A stretch of 64,000 nucleotides of DNA from Selaginella tamariscina (taxonomy: Eukaryota; Streptophyta; Lycopodiopsida; Selaginellales; Selaginellaceae): assembly GCA_003024785.1 (NCBI GenBank), contig PUQB01000572.1, positions 98,534 through 162,533 of the forward strand. Direction: 5' to 3'. Made by a program: the position numbers and the translations under genes. Positions 9,350 through 61,108 of the stretch are shown piece by piece (the first letter of the stretch is position 1; every line of letters starts with the position of its first letter). The notes beneath the pieces are model-generated. The model did not search any database. It was not told where the DNA came from and worked only from the letters and a program-made list of their open reading frames with translations.

Positions 9350-10282
9350 GAACCCTTTAGGAGAATGGCATATTTGAAAGCACATGAACGTTAGACATAC
9401 TGCCCATATGTCTTTGCATGTATCATTCCAAAAGCTTTGTAGTTGGGTAGATTATGTCACTTAAGACAACCATTTTCTAGTTGGTTTTTTGCATGCCATA
9501 TGTCTCTCCATAGGTCATTTACATATGTCTCTCATTTGTTGGGTGGACACAGACTACAACACAAAAAATGAGAGACATATGCCATGCAATTGATGTCAAT
9601 ATGTAAATGACAACTCACATATGTCCATTTTATAGCATGTCTTTGGTGGAGGTCACCTTTGTGATGACATATACAAATATGGAACTTTGTCGAATACACA
9701 TTTTTTAAATGCACAGTTTTGAATGCAGTGCTTACTAATCAAAAAGAGATGGAGGACACTATTGCAAAAACACATATGAGGTAGACCATGTAATTTCTTA
9801 ATAAATTTTGATATATGCAAGCCTTTCTTTACATTGATGCATGACACATTGGAGAAAGATTCAGATGAGTTATTGCCTCTAGATCATCTAAAAAGGATGT
9901 TGAGTAAATATTTTGTGAGACCATCAAAACCTTTGTTAGCCAGTTAGTCCCCGTCAACACATGCCTAGTAGTGGTTGAATTGGAGGAGAAAGTAACGATG
10001 CTATGGAATTCAACAACAAATATGGGATCCCAAACATGGATGGCAAAACTAAGACACGCTGAAATCCTTATTGGAAGGCAATGTATAGCAGAGTACCATT
10101 TTCCATGTTGTTTCCAAAGGAAGATATTATTAAGGTGAAATATGATACTGAAGTAGCAATAAGAATAGCATTCATTTTATAAGATGATTTTTTAAATAAC
10201 AAACTTCATGTTCATTGGCTCGAAGATACATCCATGGACGGCTAAAGAAAGTTCAAGTGGCATATATAAAATAATATGGTTA
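9350..10282. other. No supported gene
   Basis: Short overlapping minus-strand frames at 9532-9847 lack any recognisable motif. A small local inverted pair around catatgtctctcat / atgagagacatatg lies at about 9520-9580. Confidence 0.4.
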
Positions 10283-10647
10283 AGTGCTTCAATTTATTCT
10301 ATGTCAAGTCAGCTTGTTTGTTGGTTCAGATGTTATGGAGTATACATGCGTATAGATACATAATGTTATGCAAGTTATCAACCTTAATCATGAATTTAGG
10401 GTCATTTTATCCTTTAGTCATCGTCAAAAGAACTTCACCATTTAGTTAAGCTCTAGTTAGGCTCATAGTTAGGCTCTAGAAACTAAATGGTGAAGTTCTT
10501 TTAACAATGACAGAAGGATAAAATGACTCAAAATTCATGATTAAGGCTGATAACTTGCACAACATTATGTATATGTACGCATGTATACTCCATAACATCT
10601 AAACCAACAAACAAGTTGACTTGACATAGAATAAATTGAAGCATTTT
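10283..10647. repeat. Long foldback (inverted repeat), arms about 165 bp
   Basis: The left arm (10283 to about 10447, starting agtgcttcaatttattct) is mirrored by the right arm (about 10482-10647, ending agaataaattgaagcattt) around a spacer of about 35 bp that contains the duplicated phrase gttaggctc. The arms are nearly identical, differing by scattered substitutions. It could be a foldback or MITE-type element, or a source of double-stranded RNA. Confidence 0.85.
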
Positions 10648-30765: not shown

Positions 30766-31691
30766 NNNNNNNNNNNNNNNNNNNNNNNNNNNNNNNNNNN
30801 NNNNNNNNNNNNNNNNNNNNNNNNNNNNNNNNNNNNNNNNNNNNNNNNNNNNNNNNNNNNNNNNNNNNNNNNNNNNNNNNNNNNNNNNNNNNNNNNNNNN
30901 NNNNNNNNNNNNNNNNNNNNNNNNNNNNNNNNNNNNNNNNNNNNNNNNNNNNNNNNNNNNNNNNNNNNNNNNNNNNNNNNNNNNNNNNNNNNNNNNNNNN
31001 NNNNNNNNNNNNNNNNNNNNNNNNNNNNNNNNNNNNNNNNNNNNNNNNNNNNNNNNNNNNNNNNNNNNNNNNNNNNNNNNNNNNNNNNNNNNNNNNNNNN
31101 NNNNNNNNNNNNNNNNNNNNNNNNNNNNNNNNNNNNNNNNNNNNNNNNNNNNNNNNNNNNNNNNNNNNNNNNNNNNNNNNNNNNNNNNNNNNNNNNNNNN
31201 NNNNNNNNNNNNNNNNNNNNNNNNNNNNNNNNNNNNNNNNNNNNNNNNNNNNNNNNNNNNNNNNNNNNNNNNNNNNNNNNNNNNNNNNNNNNNNNNNNNN
31301 NNNNNNNNNNNNNNNNNNNNNNNNNNNNNNNNNNNNNNNNNNNNNNNNNNNNNNNNNNNNNNNNNNNNNNNNNNNNNNNNNNNNNNNNNNNNNNNNNNNN
31401 NNNNNNNNNNNNNNNNNNNNNNNNNNNNNNNNNNNNNNNNNNNNNNNNNNNNNNNNNNNNNNNNNNNNNNNNNNNNNNNNNNNNNNNNNNNNNNNNNNNN
31501 NNNNNNNNNNNNNNNNNNNNNNNNNNNNNNNNNNNNNNNNNNNNNNNNNNNNNNNNNNNNNNNNNNNNNNNNNNNNNNNNNNNNNNNNNNNNNNNNNNNN
31601 NNNNNNNNNNNNNNNNNNNNNNNNNNNNNNNNNNNNNNNNNNNNNNNNNNNNNNNNNNNNNNNNNNNNNNNNNNNNNNNNNNNNNNNNNNN
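30766..31691. other. Assembly gap (N)
   Basis: 926 undetermined bases. By comparison with the 543-bp 3' LTR at 36769, the gap should hold about 470 bp of the 5' LTR of chromovirus copy 1, plus the junction to gene X. Confidence 0.99.
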
Positions 31692-31764
31692 TGTCTGCTT
31701 CTGAGTCAAGCTTCCTTGTTCTCGGAATCCTGCTCACTTTTTGTTCCTAGATCGTGGCTTGACA
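31692..31764 (+). repeat. Visible end of the 5' LTR, chromovirus copy 1
   Basis: Matches the last 70 bases of the 3' LTR (agtcaagcttccttgttct ... gtggcttgaca) and ends in TGACA. The rest of this LTR falls in the N gap. Confidence 0.85.
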
Positions 31765-31766
31765 GT

Positions 31767-31778
31767 TTGATAGTAACT
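31767..31778 (+). promoter_or_regulatory. Putative self-primer binding site, copy 1
   Basis: TTGATAGTAACT begins two bases after the LTR end. It is the exact reverse complement of AGTTACTATCAA at 37088-37099 in the 3' LTR of the same element. No TGG-type tRNA primer site is present. See the finding on self-priming. Confidence 0.65.
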
Positions 31779-31857: not shown

Positions 31858-32815
31858 ATGGCCGATTTTGAGCAATTTCAACGCAAGCACCAAATGTTGC
31901 TTCATGAGCTGGCCACTTTGCGCCAAGTGGTCACAGATCTGCAAGGTTCCACCAAACGGTGCATGCAGCTGCTGATGCATCCTCCAAGGCTGCTGCAGGC
32001 TCTCTTCAAGCATCCGTGGTTTCCTCTCCATCGAACACTTCTTCGGAGCCGAAGATCAGCATGCCGGAAAAGTTCAATGGCAATCGTGCCGATTTCCAAG
32101 GGTTCCTGAATAGATAGGCTTTTGATCCGCATGCAACCACGCCGCTACTCGACTGATGCACAAAAGGTTGGCCTTTTGGCATCCTACTAGTTGGATCTCC
32201 ACGGGCTTGGGTTGCCCCTTTGCTGGAGCGTGACGACCCATTGATGGAAGACTTTGAAGGTTTCGTGGCTGCCTTTGAAGCTGCTTTGGAGATCCGATAA
32301 GTACCGTTTGCATGCACAAAGTTACAAGCTCACACAAGGATCCACCAGCTTCGTCTATGCATCCGAATTTCAGCAACTTTGCACGAACATTCCATGGGAC
32401 GAGACTGCATTGATGAACATTTCGTTTTGGGTTGAGGGATGACGTGAAGGACCTTCTCCTTACGTTACCGGATGCCCAAACATTAGCGGAGATCATGCAA
32501 CAGGCCGTTCGCTGCGACAACCGCTTGTTCGAGCGTCGTCAGGAAAAATCCCGTCAGCAGTTCCTGCAAACCAATCCTGCAGCTTGGTACATACTCCTGC
32601 GACACCTTCTGGAGTAGTTCCTATGGAGGTTGAGAAATACAAGCGTGGCTCACTTTCCTGCTGAGAAGCAACGTCGCCGCAGTGAGAATCTATGTTTGTA
32701 TTGTGGTGAAGCAGGACACAAGGCGGTGGAATGTCCTATTAAAGCCAGGAAGTTCAAGACGCGTGAAGTTGAAGCTGAAGTTCAGTCGGAAAACTTCAAT
32801 GTTCACTTCGTCTAG
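31858..32815 (+). pseudogene. gag of chromovirus copy 1
   Basis: Starts at the ATG of MADFEQFQRKHQMLLHELAT, followed by LRQVVTDLQG (coiled-coil-like). The capsid part is recognisable in pieces: RRYSTDAQKVGLL and SPRAWVAPLLE (about 32130-32230), then FVYASEFQQLCTNIPWDETA and LRDDVKDLLLTLPDAQTLAE. It ends with a perfect CCHC zinc knuckle, [14 protein letters not shown] (32693-32734), and a TAG at 32813. Frameshifts occur near 31955, 32100, 32280 and 32610, and about 75 bp present in copy 2 (57130-57205) are missing. Not translatable as assembled. Confidence 0.8.
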
Positions 32816-32826
32816 GAGCCGCGAAG

Positions 32827-33276
32827 TTGGACGTAGGTGCAGGCTCCATTGGTGCTGCTCATACCATTCCATCACTCAAGTTTCCTGTACACATTCATCT
32901 CAATAATCGAGAGCTCAAGGAGTTTGCCCTGTTAGACACTGGTGCAAATGCATGCTTCATGGATGACACTTTTGCAACTCAACATGGCATTCCGGTGGTG
33001 AAGTTGAAGCGTGCAGTTCCTGTAGAGGTGGCCGATGGTCGTCTGATTGCTTCTGGCGCAGTTACCCATGCTACCAAACCTCTCTTTAGTCATGGCGCAT
33101 TCAACTGTTCGATTTCCTTCAACTTGATCAAGACTCGGTCGACTCCCATCATTTTGGGCATGCCATGGTTCGTTGTTGCAAATCCTCAGATCGACTGGAG
33201 GTCTAGGACGCTCACGTTTTCCTCTCTGCAACCAGGATCAATCCTGTACCTTCCTGTGTGCAGGATACATCCTTAG
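32827..33276 (+). pseudogene. Retropepsin (start of pol), chromovirus copy 1
   Basis: An uninterrupted frame with the aspartic protease active site ALLDTGANACFMDD (catalytic DTG at 32935-32943) and the closing IILGMPWFVVANPQIDW. It processes the polyprotein. In copy 2 the equivalent frame opens with ATG (57755), 11 bases after the gag stop and in another frame; here that codon is TTG. This is the only domain of copy 1 intact in one frame. It probably belonged to a longer pol. Confidence 0.8.
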
Positions 33277-33928: not shown

Positions 33929-35230
33929 GTGGAAGGAAAGACTCCACCGTTCGGACCGATTTATGCACTGTCACCTACAGAATTGGAGGTTCTTCGTCAG
34001 TACATCGAGGAAAACTTGGCATCCGGCTTCATTCGTCACTCAAAGTCCCTGCAGGAGCACCTATCTTCTTTGTCAAGAAGAAAGATGGGAGTTTACGTTT
34101 GGTTGTGGACTACAGAGGTTTGAATCAAGTCACCATTCGGAATCGGTACCCGTTGCCATTGATCCCGGAACTTCTCGATCGGCTGCAAGGAGCAAAGGTG
34201 TTCACGAAGATCGACTTACGAGGGGCTTACAATCTTGTACGGATTCGTGGCGATGAGTGGAAGACTGCCTTTCGTACAAGGTATGGACACTTCGAGTACA
34301 CGGTGATGCCTTTCGGACTTACCAATGCCCCAGCCGTGTTCCAACACATGGTGAACGACATCTTTCGTGACTTCTTGGACCAGTTTGTGGTAATCTACCT
34401 CGATGACATTTTGATTTTCTCCAAGGACCAGGCGGCTCATGACAAGCATGTACGACTAGTCCTACAGGCTTCGCGAGCATGGCCTGTATGCGAAGTTGGA
34501 GAAGTGTTTCTTCGACAGGGATACTGTGGAGTTCTTGGGCTACATCGTCTCTCTGCTGGGTTTCCATGGACATGCACAAGGTGAAGACTATCGGAGTGGG
34601 AGAGGCCCAAGTCTGTACGAGACGTACAATGTTTCCTTGGCTTTGCAAACTTCTACAGGCGTTTCATACAGGACTTCTCCAAGCGTGTACTTCCACTCAC
34701 GGAACTCACCAAGCGCACAAGTGTTCTCTTGGTCCGACAAGGCGGAACATGCATTCACAACACTCAAGGACGCCTTCACGACAGCTCCGATTTTAGCACA
34801 TCCTGATCCTTCTCGTCCCTTCTTCGTTGAAGCAGATGCCTCGGATTTTGCAGTAGGATCTGTTCTATCACAAGTTGGAGAAGACAAGTTGCTTCATCTG
34901 TAGCTTTTCACTCTCGTAAGTTCCTTTGGCGGAGATCAATTACGAGATTCATGACAAGGAACTCAAGGCCATTGTGGATTCGTTCGAGGAGTGGCGGCAT
35001 TTCCTGGAAGGTGCTGCATCCTGTACAAGTTCTTACGGATCACAAGAACCTGGAGTATTTTCAAACGGCTCGAGTTCTCAGTCGGCGACAGGCTAGGTGG
35101 GGGAGTTCCTATCACGTTTTGATTTTCGTCATCATCTACAGGCCTGGTTTTCAAATGGCAAGGCGGATGCATTGTCTAGGCGCTCTTACCTTGCACCGCC
35201 CGGCGATCCTGCATATGACTGTCAAAAGCA
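33929..35230 (+). pseudogene. Reverse transcriptase and RNase H, chromovirus copy 1
   Basis: RT starts near [20 protein letters not shown]. It continues with [16 protein letters not shown] sequence, [69 protein letters not shown] and the catalytic YLDD at 34396-34407 ([12 protein letters not shown]). RNase H begins at [18 protein letters not shown] (about 34815-34868) and closes with [20 protein letters not shown] and ADALSRR (about 35170). Frameshifts lie near 34085, 34480, 34600, 34895, 35000 and 35100, several at single-base losses. All catalytic motifs seen are conserved, so decay, if real, is recent. Confidence 0.85.
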
Positions 35231-35289: not shown

Positions 35290-36757
35290 AATTCCACACT
35301 CCTACAGGACATCCGTTTGCAGTTGGCTACAGACGACTTGGCAAGGAATGTGTTTTCACACATTAGTCCTGACATCGCAAGTTCCTCTTCCTCCAGTTCC
35401 CGTACAGACTACAAGTTGTTGCCATACAGGACGGACTCCTGTACCGGGAAGGTCTCCTGTACGTTCCTGTTGGTGTTTGCAGGACTCGTGTGGTACAGGA
35501 TTGTCATGATACCCGGCTACAGGACATTTTGGTGTGGCCAAGACAGTTGAGTTGGTGACTCGCAACTATTGGTGGCCTGGGTTGCGAGGTTTTGTGGACA
35601 AGTTTACGGAGTTGTGACACCTGCAATAGGTCGAAGATGCCTTCACGCGCCTCTGGTCTTCTTCGTCCTCTTCCTGTTCCTTCTGCTCCTTGGAGATCCA
35701 TTTCTATGGATTTCCTCACAGATCTTCCTCCTTCTCGTGGATTTGATGCAGTTCTTGTGGTGGTTGACCGTTTCACCAAACAGGCTCATTTCCTAACCAA
35801 CTACAGGCCAGACAACTGCTGAGTTGGTGATCTGCGAAGTATTCGACACCATGGTCTTCCTGAGAGCATTGTTTCTGATCGAGGCCCACAATTCATGTCC
35901 AAGTTTTGGCGAGAACTTCTCCGGAGTCTACAGGTTAAAGCGGATCTTTCTTCAGGATATCATCCACAAACTGATGGGCAGTCAGAACGCACGATTCAGA
36001 CCTTGGAGCAATATCTTCGTTGCTTCATCAGTTACCAACAGGACAACTGGTTGGACCTTCTTCCAATGGCGGAGTTTGCCTACAACAACTCATTCACGCA
36101 TCTACAGGCCAGACACCTTTCTTTGCTCTTACAGGCTACCATCCACGTTTTGACTTTGCTCCTCCTGCTTCTCCTTCTTCCGCTCCTGCAGTACAGGATC
36201 GTCTCAGCATCTTCGTCAGGTACAGAGGATCTCCGGGTTCATCTTCAGCAGGCACAGGAACGGTACAAGCGTCATGCTGATGCTCATCATCAACGGCACC
36301 TATACAAGATTGGTGATCTCGTGTGGCTTCTTCGTCACATATTCGCACCAACAGGCCTTCTTCTAAGTTGGATTTTCAACGATTGGGCCCTTACAGGATT
36401 GCGGCTGAGGTCAATCCTGTAGCTTTCCGACTCGAGTTACCATCTACGGTGAAACTTCATCCTGTGTTTCACACCTCTTTGTTGGAGCCGTATCATCCTT
36501 CTTCTCTTCCTGGTCGTGCTTCTTCTCCTCCCCTCCTGTGGTCATTGACGGTGAACCTGAGTACGAAGTTGCAGCCATCCTTGATTCTCGTCTTCATCGC
36601 CGCCAACTTCAATACTTGGTGGATTGAAAGGTTATTTGCCTACCATCGCACTTGGGAACCTGCATCCAACTTACTCCATGCTTCTTCCAAAGTTGCTGCT
36701 TTCCATCGGCGTTATCCTGCTAAACCAGGTCCCAAGACTCGTGGAACTCGTCCTTAG
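35290..36757 (+). pseudogene. Integrase with GPY/F module and chromodomain, chromovirus copy 1
   Basis: The zinc-binding end reads [13 protein letters not shown] and CDTCNRSK (35570-35635). Core motifs are SMDFLTDLP (first D), [19 protein letters not shown] (second D, about 35872) and [20 protein letters not shown] (E, about 35985). The C-terminus has IGDLVWL, then [20 protein letters not shown] (GPY/F module, 36371-36430), LHPVFHTSLLEPY, and a chromodomain: EYEVAAILDSRLHRRQLQYL, VD(W)KGYLP and TWEPASNLL (36555-36680). One lost G removes the tryptophan of VDWKGY, and other 1-nt losses break the frame about six times. Ends at TAG 36755-36757. The chromodomain normally directs integration to heterochromatin. 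Confidence 0.85.
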
Positions 36758-36768: not shown

Positions 36769-36779
36769 TGTCACGACCG

Positions 36780-37010
36780 ATACAGGATGCAGGATACAGG
36801 ATACGGGTTACAGGATATGCTTATAGGATATACCTACAGGATATGCATGCAGGATATTCCTACAGGATATACCTACAGGATATTCCTACAGGATATGCCT
36901 ATAGGATATACCTACAAGATATGCCTGCAGATATTCCTACATGATATACCTACAGGATATTCCTACAGGATATGCCTATAGGTATACTACAGGATATGCC
37001 TAGAGGATAA
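36780..37010 (+). repeat. 13-bp minisatellite in the LTR U3 region
   Basis: About 15 tandem units of the consensus TACAGGATATNCC, with N mostly G, A or T and a few units shortened to 11-12 bp. In copy 2 only about five recognisable units remain (56205-56293). Confidence 0.9.
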
Positions 37011-37056
37011 GGGTCACTATTTTTAGCTCATGACCAGATTAACTTGGATTGTGAGC

Positions 37057-37099
37057 ATAAAAGCTCCGACCTAATTGTTGTATAATTAGTTACTATCAA
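37057..37099 (+). promoter_or_regulatory. LTR promoter and putative self-primer sequence
   Basis: The TATA-like ATAAAAG at 37057-37063 is followed, 31 bases from its start, by AGTTACTATCAA (37088-37099). The distance fits a transcript beginning at or near 37088, which would place the 12-base complement of the primer site at the extreme 5' end of the RNA. Confidence 0.55.
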
Positions 37100-37311
37100 T
37101 ACCAGTCTTTCTACGATCAATCTTGTCTTGTTTTGTTCTTGTCTTGTCTTGCTCCTTGCCTCCTGCTCTTGTCTTGTTTTTAGTTCCTAGTTCCTGTCCT
37201 GCTCCAGTTCCTGTTTTACCTCCCTGTCTTGCTCCTTGTCTTGCTTCTAAGTCAAGCTTCCTTGTTCTTGGAATCCTGCTCACTTTCTTGTTCCTGGATC
37301 GTGGCTTGACA

Positions 37312-49189: not shown

Positions 49190-50080
49190 GGTGGCGGGAT
49201 TAATCCCGCCACCCCTTCCTACCTAATAGAATAGTGGGCGGGATTAATCTCGCCCATGACTCTCTCCAATGAGGATTAGTCGGCGGGATTAATCTAGCCA
49301 ATGCTTTCTCTGACGTGGAGGAGGTTGGCGGGATTAATCCTGCCAATACTTCCTTGCAACGGGGAAGAATCGGTAGGATTAATCCGCCCACAACTCTCTC
49401 CAATGGGGAAGAGGTGACAGGATTAATTCTGCCAATGTTCCTCACCTCTTAGAATTGGGGTGGGATTAATCATGCCCACCATTTAGGAGACAGAGAAGCA
49501 TTGGCAAGGTTAATTCACTTCTAAAAATGGTGGGCATGATTACATATTGGTTTGTTATGATGTGCCATTTGGTGAAACTACTTTAGGGGTTTGGATCCAT
49601 TAGGATTGCACTATAATCCGTTATGGATTTATCCCGTTCACATATCCTCACATATCCCATTCACAAATCCTCTTTTTTAACTAGCCAAGATTTCAGAGAG
49701 ATCTCGAAGGGGTGGCGGGATTAATCATGTCAATGCTTCCATGCCTCCTAAACTGGTCGGCGGGATAAATCTCGCCCACAATTCTTTAAAATAGGGAAGG
49801 GGTGGTGGGAGTAATCCCGCCACCCCTTCCCTATCTCCTAGAATGGTGGGCGGGATTAATCCCGCCCACAACTCTTTAAAACTAATTCCATCAACTCTTC
49901 ATCATTTCAGTAAGTTGTCGGCGGGATTAACCCTACCACCCTTTCTAAGAAGCGGAGAAGCATTGGTCGGATTAATCCCGCCACCCCTTTCTCATTTCAG
50001 AGAGTTGTGGGCGGGATTAATCGCGCCACTTTTTAAAAGGCAGAAAAGGAATGGCTGGATTAATTCCGCCACCCCATCGA
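49190..50080. repeat. Palindromic box array 1, period about 45 bp
   Basis: Sixteen boxes built on GGCGGGATTAATCCCGCC, centred near 49201, 49246, 49291, 49336, 49381, 49425, 49468, 49513, 49723, 49768, 49813, 49858, 49929, 49974, 50019 and 50062. Spacing is 43-45 bp except at 49513-49723 (an unrelated insert) and 49858-49929. The first box (49190-49213) is a perfect 24-bp palindrome; the others have one to four changes. Spacers are variable, often with ccttcc/ggggaag or actctttaaa phrases. Confidence 0.92.
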
Positions 50081-53587: not shown

Positions 53588-54075
53588 GTAGGATTAACCA
53601 AAGGGCGGTAAGATTAATCTCGTCACCCATGACTAAAGGGTGGTAGGATTAATCCCGCCCCACACTCTTTGAGACATAAACAGTGGTAAGCGGGATTAAT
53701 CATGCCCCACATTTTTTGAGACATAAAGGGTGAGGGGATTAATACCACCGACCATTTGAGGAGGCGTAGAGGTGGTGGGAGGATTAATCCCACTCACAAG
53801 ACATGGAAGGGTGGCGGGATTCCCGCCACCCTTTATGTCTTAAAGAATGTAGGCGGGATTAATCCCGTCCACCACCCTTATCATATAAGAGAGTTGTGGT
53901 GGGATTAATCTTGCCACTAGGCATGAAAGGGTCAGTGGGATTAATCTCACCACCCTTTATGTCTCAAAGAATGTGGGTGGGATTAATCTCGCCACCATCA
54001 TTTATGTCATAAAGAGTGTGGGGCGGGATTAATTCCGCCCACCAGGCATGGAAGGGGTGATGGGATTAATCCTAC
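53588..54075. repeat. Palindromic box array 2
   Basis: Thirteen boxes related to GGCGGGATTAATCCCGCC, centred near 53596, 53616, 53651, 53698, 53741, 53786, 53820, 53861, 53907, 53943, 53985, 54031 and 54068. Spacing is 35-47 bp, less regular than array 1. The 53820 box has lost the central TAA-type bases (GGCGGGATTCCCGCC). Spacers often read ctttatgtct(c/t)aaagaatgt. Confidence 0.9.
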
Positions 54076-56192: not shown

Positions 56193-56612
56193 TGTCACAA
56201 CCCGATACAGGATGTAGGATTCTGGATACAGGATATAGGCTACGATTATAGGATATGCTTATAAGATATGCTACAGAATATGCCTAGAGGATAAGGGTCA
56301 CTATTTTTAGCTCATGACTAGATTAAACTCATGACCAGATTAGCTTGGAGTTGTGAGCATAAAGCTCCGACCTAATTGTGTACAATTAGTTACTATCAAC
56401 ACCAGTCTTTACGATCAATCTTATCTTGTCTTGTTCTTGTCTTGTCTTGCTCCTTGCCTCCTGCTCTAAGACTTGTCTTGTTCCTGGTTCCTAGTTCCTG
56501 TCCTGTTCCAATCCCTATCCTGCTCCCCGTCCTGCCCTTGTCCTGCTTCTAAGTCAAACTTCCTTGTTCTCAAAATCTTGCTCACTTCCTTGTTCCTGGT
56601 CGTGGCTTGACA
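56193..56612 (+). repeat. 5' LTR of chromovirus copy 2 (420 bp)
   Basis: Runs from TGTCACAACC to GGCTTGACA. It carries the TATA-like ATAAAG at 56359-56364 and AGTTACTATCAA at 56388-56399. The 13-bp array is contracted to about five units. A local duplication of actcatgaccagatta near 56310-56340 is specific to this copy. Confidence 0.87.
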
Positions 56613-56614
56613 GT

Positions 56615-56626
56615 TTGATAGTAACT
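56615..56626 (+). promoter_or_regulatory. Putative self-primer binding site, copy 2
   Basis: TTGATAGTAACT begins two bases after the LTR end and is the exact reverse complement of 56388-56399 within the preceding LTR. Identical to copy 1. Confidence 0.65.
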
Positions 56627-61096: not shown

Positions 61097-61108
61097 GCTC
61101 CGATACCA
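61097..61108 (-). promoter_or_regulatory. tRNA-type primer binding site of family A
   Basis: On the minus strand TGGTATCGGAGC lies two bases after the LTR end (CTCTAACA). It matches the plant initiator-Met primer site (TGGTATCAGAGC) at 11 of 12 positions. Confidence 0.75.

Follow-up and report, generated by a model that had tools for sequence, protein, structure and literature searches.

A primer binding site complementary to its own long terminal repeat in a probably self-primed chromodomain retrotransposon of Selaginella tamariscina

In the fission yeast retrotransposon Tf1, the first 11 bases of the RNA pair with the primer binding site (PBS) and are freed by an RNase H cut between bases 11 and 12 (PMC7175516). 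Tj1 of S. japonicus is similar to Tf1 (PMC4600332), and self-priming has been proposed for Tcn1 of Cryptococcus (PMC7175516). Among plants, Neumann et al. 2019 (PMC6317226) predict self-priming for the majority of Tcn1-clade elements, in mosses and club-mosses, and also for the TAR lineage of Ty1/copia. For SM-Tcn1 of Selaginella moellendorffii, Novikova et al. 2010 (PMC2864245) saw evidence of neither tRNA priming nor self-priming. Here we analyze a stretch of 64,000 nucleotides (nt) from Selaginella tamariscina (contig PUQB01000572.1; hereafter the window) with two + strand copies of one Ty3/gypsy family, in which the PBS is exactly complementary to a segment of the element's own long terminal repeat (LTR). 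As an idea, self-priming in plants is not new: the published prediction for Tcn1-like elements precedes this analysis, of which a first-pass annotation of this DNA, aware of no description of the mechanism in a plant element, made no mention. The literature searched, with supplements and most subscription journals beyond reach, yielded no paper on this exact family.

The family shares features with each of these systems. Like Tf1 and Tj1, it is a chromodomain element in which the presumed first bases of the RNA are complementary to the PBS (PMC7175516, PMC4600332); it differs from Tf1 in host (yeast there), in the number of bases involved (11 there, 12 here), and in that the mechanism has been shown experimentally in Tf1, whereas here it is inferred from the sequence. 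Plant Tcn1-clade chromoviruses (REXdb, PMC6317226) are alike in that the majority are predicted to be self-priming, and in their absence of tRNA sites, aromatic-cage chromodomain, and apparent kinship to Tf1 and sushi, a likeness drawn from their described features. SM-Tcn1, compared by its published description (PMC2864245), is similar in length (5704 bp, versus 5817-6637 bp among two-ended copies here) and in its LTR (440 bp, versus 420 and 543 bp); shared as well are the TG...CA ends, a T-rich leader, and a chromodomain. It differs in that neither tRNA priming nor self-priming was found for it. The ends of the copy 2 LTR (TGTCACA...CTTGACA) fit the sushi LTR-end motif TGTYANR...CNTNACA (PMC3601003). 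Elements of the TAR lineage are alike in predicted plant self-priming (PMC6317226) and differ in belonging to Ty1/copia; the order here is that of Ty3/gypsy, and TAR identity was rejected on the position of the integrase piece (35823), which lies after the reverse transcriptase (RT, 34072) and not before it.

The 12-mer TTGATAGTAACT stands at the 5' junction of both copies and its exact reverse complement within an LTR of each (Table 1), as the first-pass annotation had noticed, and these four are the sole exact occurrences of either sequence in the window. Parts of that description need adjusting: the PBS begins 2 nt (GT) past the LTR end and not directly after it; an LTR of about 540 bp fits the 3' LTR of copy 1 (543 bp), but that of copy 2 has 420 bp; and the pair, exact in both copies, is known for copy 1 solely from its 3' LTR because its 5' LTR is mostly N (30766-31691). 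In copy 2, a CATAAA box lies 30 nt above the LTR segment, within the 29 to 31 bp given earlier for a TATA-like box. The site does not begin with TGG after its 2-nt spacer, in agreement with the earlier observation that no tRNA-type site follows the LTR. Judged on its letters, the junction has a PBS complementary to its own LTR segment and no tRNA-type site, the arrangement of Tf1 and sushi. With up to two mismatches allowed, the window contains 10 matches to the 12-mer where 10.1 are expected, so the signal resides in exactness and position rather than in a loose motif. Dinucleotide shuffling of the copy 2 LTR, repeated 20,000 times, never produced the full 12-mer complement and produced an 11-mer of it five times, consistent with the original judgment that a chance match is improbable.

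A search of the 300.7-Mb, 1391-contig assembly with the LTR returned at least 40 scored matches. Besides the window's own, 39 were retrieved (L009-L047). The leader follows in 27 of them (L009-L035); the remaining 12 (L036-L047), where it does not, were excluded from the PBS counts. Together with window copy 2, the 27 provide 28 five-prime junctions, some near-identical to one another. Seven elements in 20 longer stretches are two-ended, and four of the seven have exact 5-bp target duplications, which define the LTR as TGTCA...TGACA and place the start of the PBS 2 nt behind it. In 27 of the 28 copies, the distance from a C/TATAA box down to the LTR segment is 28-32 nt, and in the remaining one it is 22 nt. 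Because all 28 junctions represent one family, they count as a single event, and further families were required.

These came from an RT-alignment scan of bacterial and archaeal genome contigs, which yielded 16 loci (L068-L083) that we take to be contaminating eukaryotic DNA because they carry gypsy elements. An unanchored search for inverted 10- to 14-mers found many pairs within coding sequence, and for this reason only matches at the LTR end were counted. Across the 87 TGACA sites of the 16 loci, an upstream match of at least 10 nt at +2 occurs at three only, one in L068 and one in L069 (12 nt each) and one in L077 (11 nt), and 20,000 shuffles recovered the full match 0, 2, and 13 times, respectively (an 11-mer in the last case). 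The PBS reads TTGATCAAGAGT in L068, TTGTCGAGACTG in L069, and TTACCAAGTAA in L077, again with no TGG at the site. In the six comparisons among the four families, every one of the 41 differing positions (5, 8, 7, 8, 7, and 6) has changed on both sides, and 10 of the 12 positions vary, always in pairs; the primer of one family fits the site of another at only 4-7 positions. Such paired changes fit self-priming rather than a tRNA primer or a protein site; they support the Tf1/sushi-like interpretation first proposed for this element: priming by its own RNA through a fold-back of this type very probably explains the inverted pair. TATA-like boxes stand about 33 nt (L068) and about 31 nt (L069) above the segment. 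In a further locus on a self-overlapping contig, L078, the match is 14 nt long and starts at +3 (0 of 20,000 shuffles); this locus is outside the count of 41.

Several observations weigh against self-priming. When two junctions with an indel in the site are excluded, Watson-Crick pairing in the 26 gapless copies covers on average 10.8 of the 12 positions (11.4 with G-U) and is perfect in six; changes among them are mainly one-sided and mainly of the type C>T or G>A, the pattern that post-insertion decay would leave. Only 10 of the 28 copies, including 5 of the 6 with perfect pairing, have primer and site joined in the minimum-energy fold calculated from the LTR segment on, and the pairing probability is 0.01 in L077 but 0.94-0.96 in L068, L069, and the window copy. 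By eye, no TATA box can be clearly made out at the predicted spacing in L077 or L078, and L079, a wrap-round contig joined via a repeated gag stretch, shows no such pair. As a control, 5 of the 184 TGACA sites on both strands of the window match upstream by at least 10 nt at +2; one of these is copy 2, and the other four belong either to a foldback around 10.3-10.6 kb or to an array of palindromes around 49.7 kb.

The covariation check proposed in the first-pass annotation succeeds between families. Within the family, at one column pair, both sides changed in 4 of the 26 copies, the LTR alone in 3, and the PBS alone in 5, and these changes neither support nor exclude covariation, the signal being swamped by C>T and G>A. 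A second helix, between R and U5, was looked for by eye on the model of the Tf1 U5-IR stem-loop; it is plausible in the window family and L068, weak in L069, and replaced by a local hairpin in L077, and we do not claim it.

The alternative that survives best is that the primer at this site is a tRNA (whole, half, or internal fragment) and that the LTR complement is secondary or accidental. tRNA-Met is the primer of most plant chromoviruses, and priming by half-tRNAs is known among plant copia elements (PMC6317226); ARAGORN returned zero tRNAs in the window and in 20 fetched loci, giving no host tRNA set to compare with the sites. We nevertheless consider this explanation improbable, as the site starts without TGG in all four families and the sites differ at 5-8 positions while each exactly fits its own LTR. 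Marginally less credible is that the inverted pair has some other role in RNA or DNA (for example in packaging, in the formation of dimers, or as a protein site), with something else as the primer. Pairing by itself does not show priming, and in 18 of 28 copies another fold is predicted to be better than the primer-site one; however, one arm is exactly at the place of a PBS (LTR end +2), the second is where transcription should start, and the letters change in step, which rules out a sequence-specific protein site. That a chance match was inherited by every copy of one family would accord with the 28 junctions being a single event and with the chance level of loose window matches, but it is exceedingly improbable given the failure of all 20,000 shuffles of the copy 2 LTR and the three further families with the same layout and different letters.

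Under self-priming, transcription would start at the LTR segment (56388/37088), which the TATA spacing fits, and the 5' end of the RNA would fold back onto the PBS. The element's RNase H would then cut the folded RNA near nt 11-12, and the freed 3' end would prime minus-strand synthesis across the 2-nt spacer and on into U5. Should each round copy the primer into the PBS, the two arms would remain complementary, and this copying would account for their joint drift. It is an evenly balanced question whether self-priming is general in Tcn1/sushi elements of non-seed plants, including ferns. Primer and PBS would then evolve as a linked pair, the PBS being written anew from the primer at every replication, and the junction GACAG-Y-TT, possibly with the second R:U5 helix, would be fixed; if true, this would solve the SM-Tcn1 puzzle. 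The compensating changes across independent families back the published prediction of self-priming in plant Tcn1-like elements, and they are a reason to re-examine SM-Tcn1, which lacks either priming mode in print. PBS finders that seek tRNA ends alone would label such elements as PBS-less.

Both window elements are in all likelihood decayed copies of a chromodomain-bearing Ty3/gypsy element of the Tf1/sushi/Tcn1 assemblage that was primed by its own RNA. Copy 1 begins inside the N run and ends at 37311, and its Pfam matches are ordered zinc knuckle, aspartic protease, RT, RNase H, integrase piece, and Tf2-1-like SH3. Gag-like and protease-like frames can be read by eye behind the copy 2 LTR, and a second LTR for this copy was not found within the window. 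The chromodomain is frameshifted in copy 1, where the piece tested has no Pfam match, and readable in sister copies, one of which (L054) matches Chromo at 2.4e-15. By eye, the L054 domain has Y, W, and Y at the positions that form the aromatic cage in HP1.

The kinship of the RT was assessed from the best 120 of about 8000 matches in each protein search. Among the matches listed, identity to the 137-residue RT core is 77% for an Adiantum (fern) protein, 75% for Absidia, and 73% for two Cryptococcus proteins; ten vertebrate proteins range from 61 to 73%, and five Tanacetum proteins from 46 to 57%. Two trees place the RT within a set of fungal, vertebrate, and fern RTs and separate it from Ty3 and the Tanacetum RTs; support is moderate (0.90 in one tree; 62-96 at the relevant nodes in the other). 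The order inside the set is not resolved, and none of the RTs in the trees carries the label Tf1, sushi, or Tcn1. PMC6317226 names mosses and club-mosses as hosts of Tcn1-like elements; the RT relatives L068 (82%; speculatively from the fern Azolla, given its Trichormus bin) and Adiantum P0098 (77%) hint that such elements occur in ferns too.

Table 1. Features of the two element copies in the window.
Feature	Position	Strand	Basis or remark
Visible end of copy 1 5' LTR	31692..31764	+	remainder N
Copy 1 primer binding site	31767..31778	+	exact 12-mer TTGATAGTAACT
Protease-like frame, copy 1	32779..33273	+	gag-asp_proteas
Reverse transcriptase core, copy 1	34072..34482	+	RVT_1 1.2e-28; trees
Integrase piece, copy 1	35823..36419	+	rve 2.8e-05, below curated cut-off
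Tf2-1-like SH3 domain and end of frameshifted chromodomain, copy 1	36317..36754	+	SH3_Tf2-1 1.1e-15; chromodomain intact in sister copies
3' LTR, copy 1 (543 bp)	36769..37311	+	
Self-primer segment in copy 1 3' LTR	37088..37099	+	exact complement of PBS
5' LTR, copy 2 (420 bp, TGTCA...TGACA)	56193..56612	+	ends fixed via sister-copy target duplications
CATAAA box, copy 2	56358..56363	+	30 nt above presumed transcript start
Presumed RNA 5' end/self-primer AGTTACTATCAA, copy 2	56388..56399	+	exact PBS complement; start inferred
Self-complementary primer binding site TTGATAGTAACT, copy 2	56615..56626	+	2 nt past LTR

Among the remaining presumed contaminant loci, 11 gave no PBS-LTR match, and 10 of them (all except L083) were examined for an LTR pair, with none found; L071, L072, and L074 contain too little LTR for the PBS test. 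L071 and L072, AT-rich elements from rumen-type bins in which the LTR is cut, share within their first 130 bases the block CACCYTTACAAKTGGATAGMGT, close to where the LTR presumably ends. Neither of two IMG/VR scans with the RT yielded a confirmed relative, and a megablast of the junction against plasmids gave no match.

Rfam at gathering scores found nothing in the window. Elsewhere in it, the copia element has the initiator-Met-like primer site assigned to it in the first-pass annotation (TTGGTATCGGAGC at 61108, - strand). The 166-nt foldback occupies 10282-10646, its arms 92% complementary around a loop of 33 nt. The palindrome GGCGGGATTAATCCCGCC forms arrays at 49193-50070 and 53642-54039, with 19 places in all at up to three mismatches (13 and 6), many about 45 bp apart; it occurs four times in other stretches of the genome (L009-L067, 218,559 overlapping bases).
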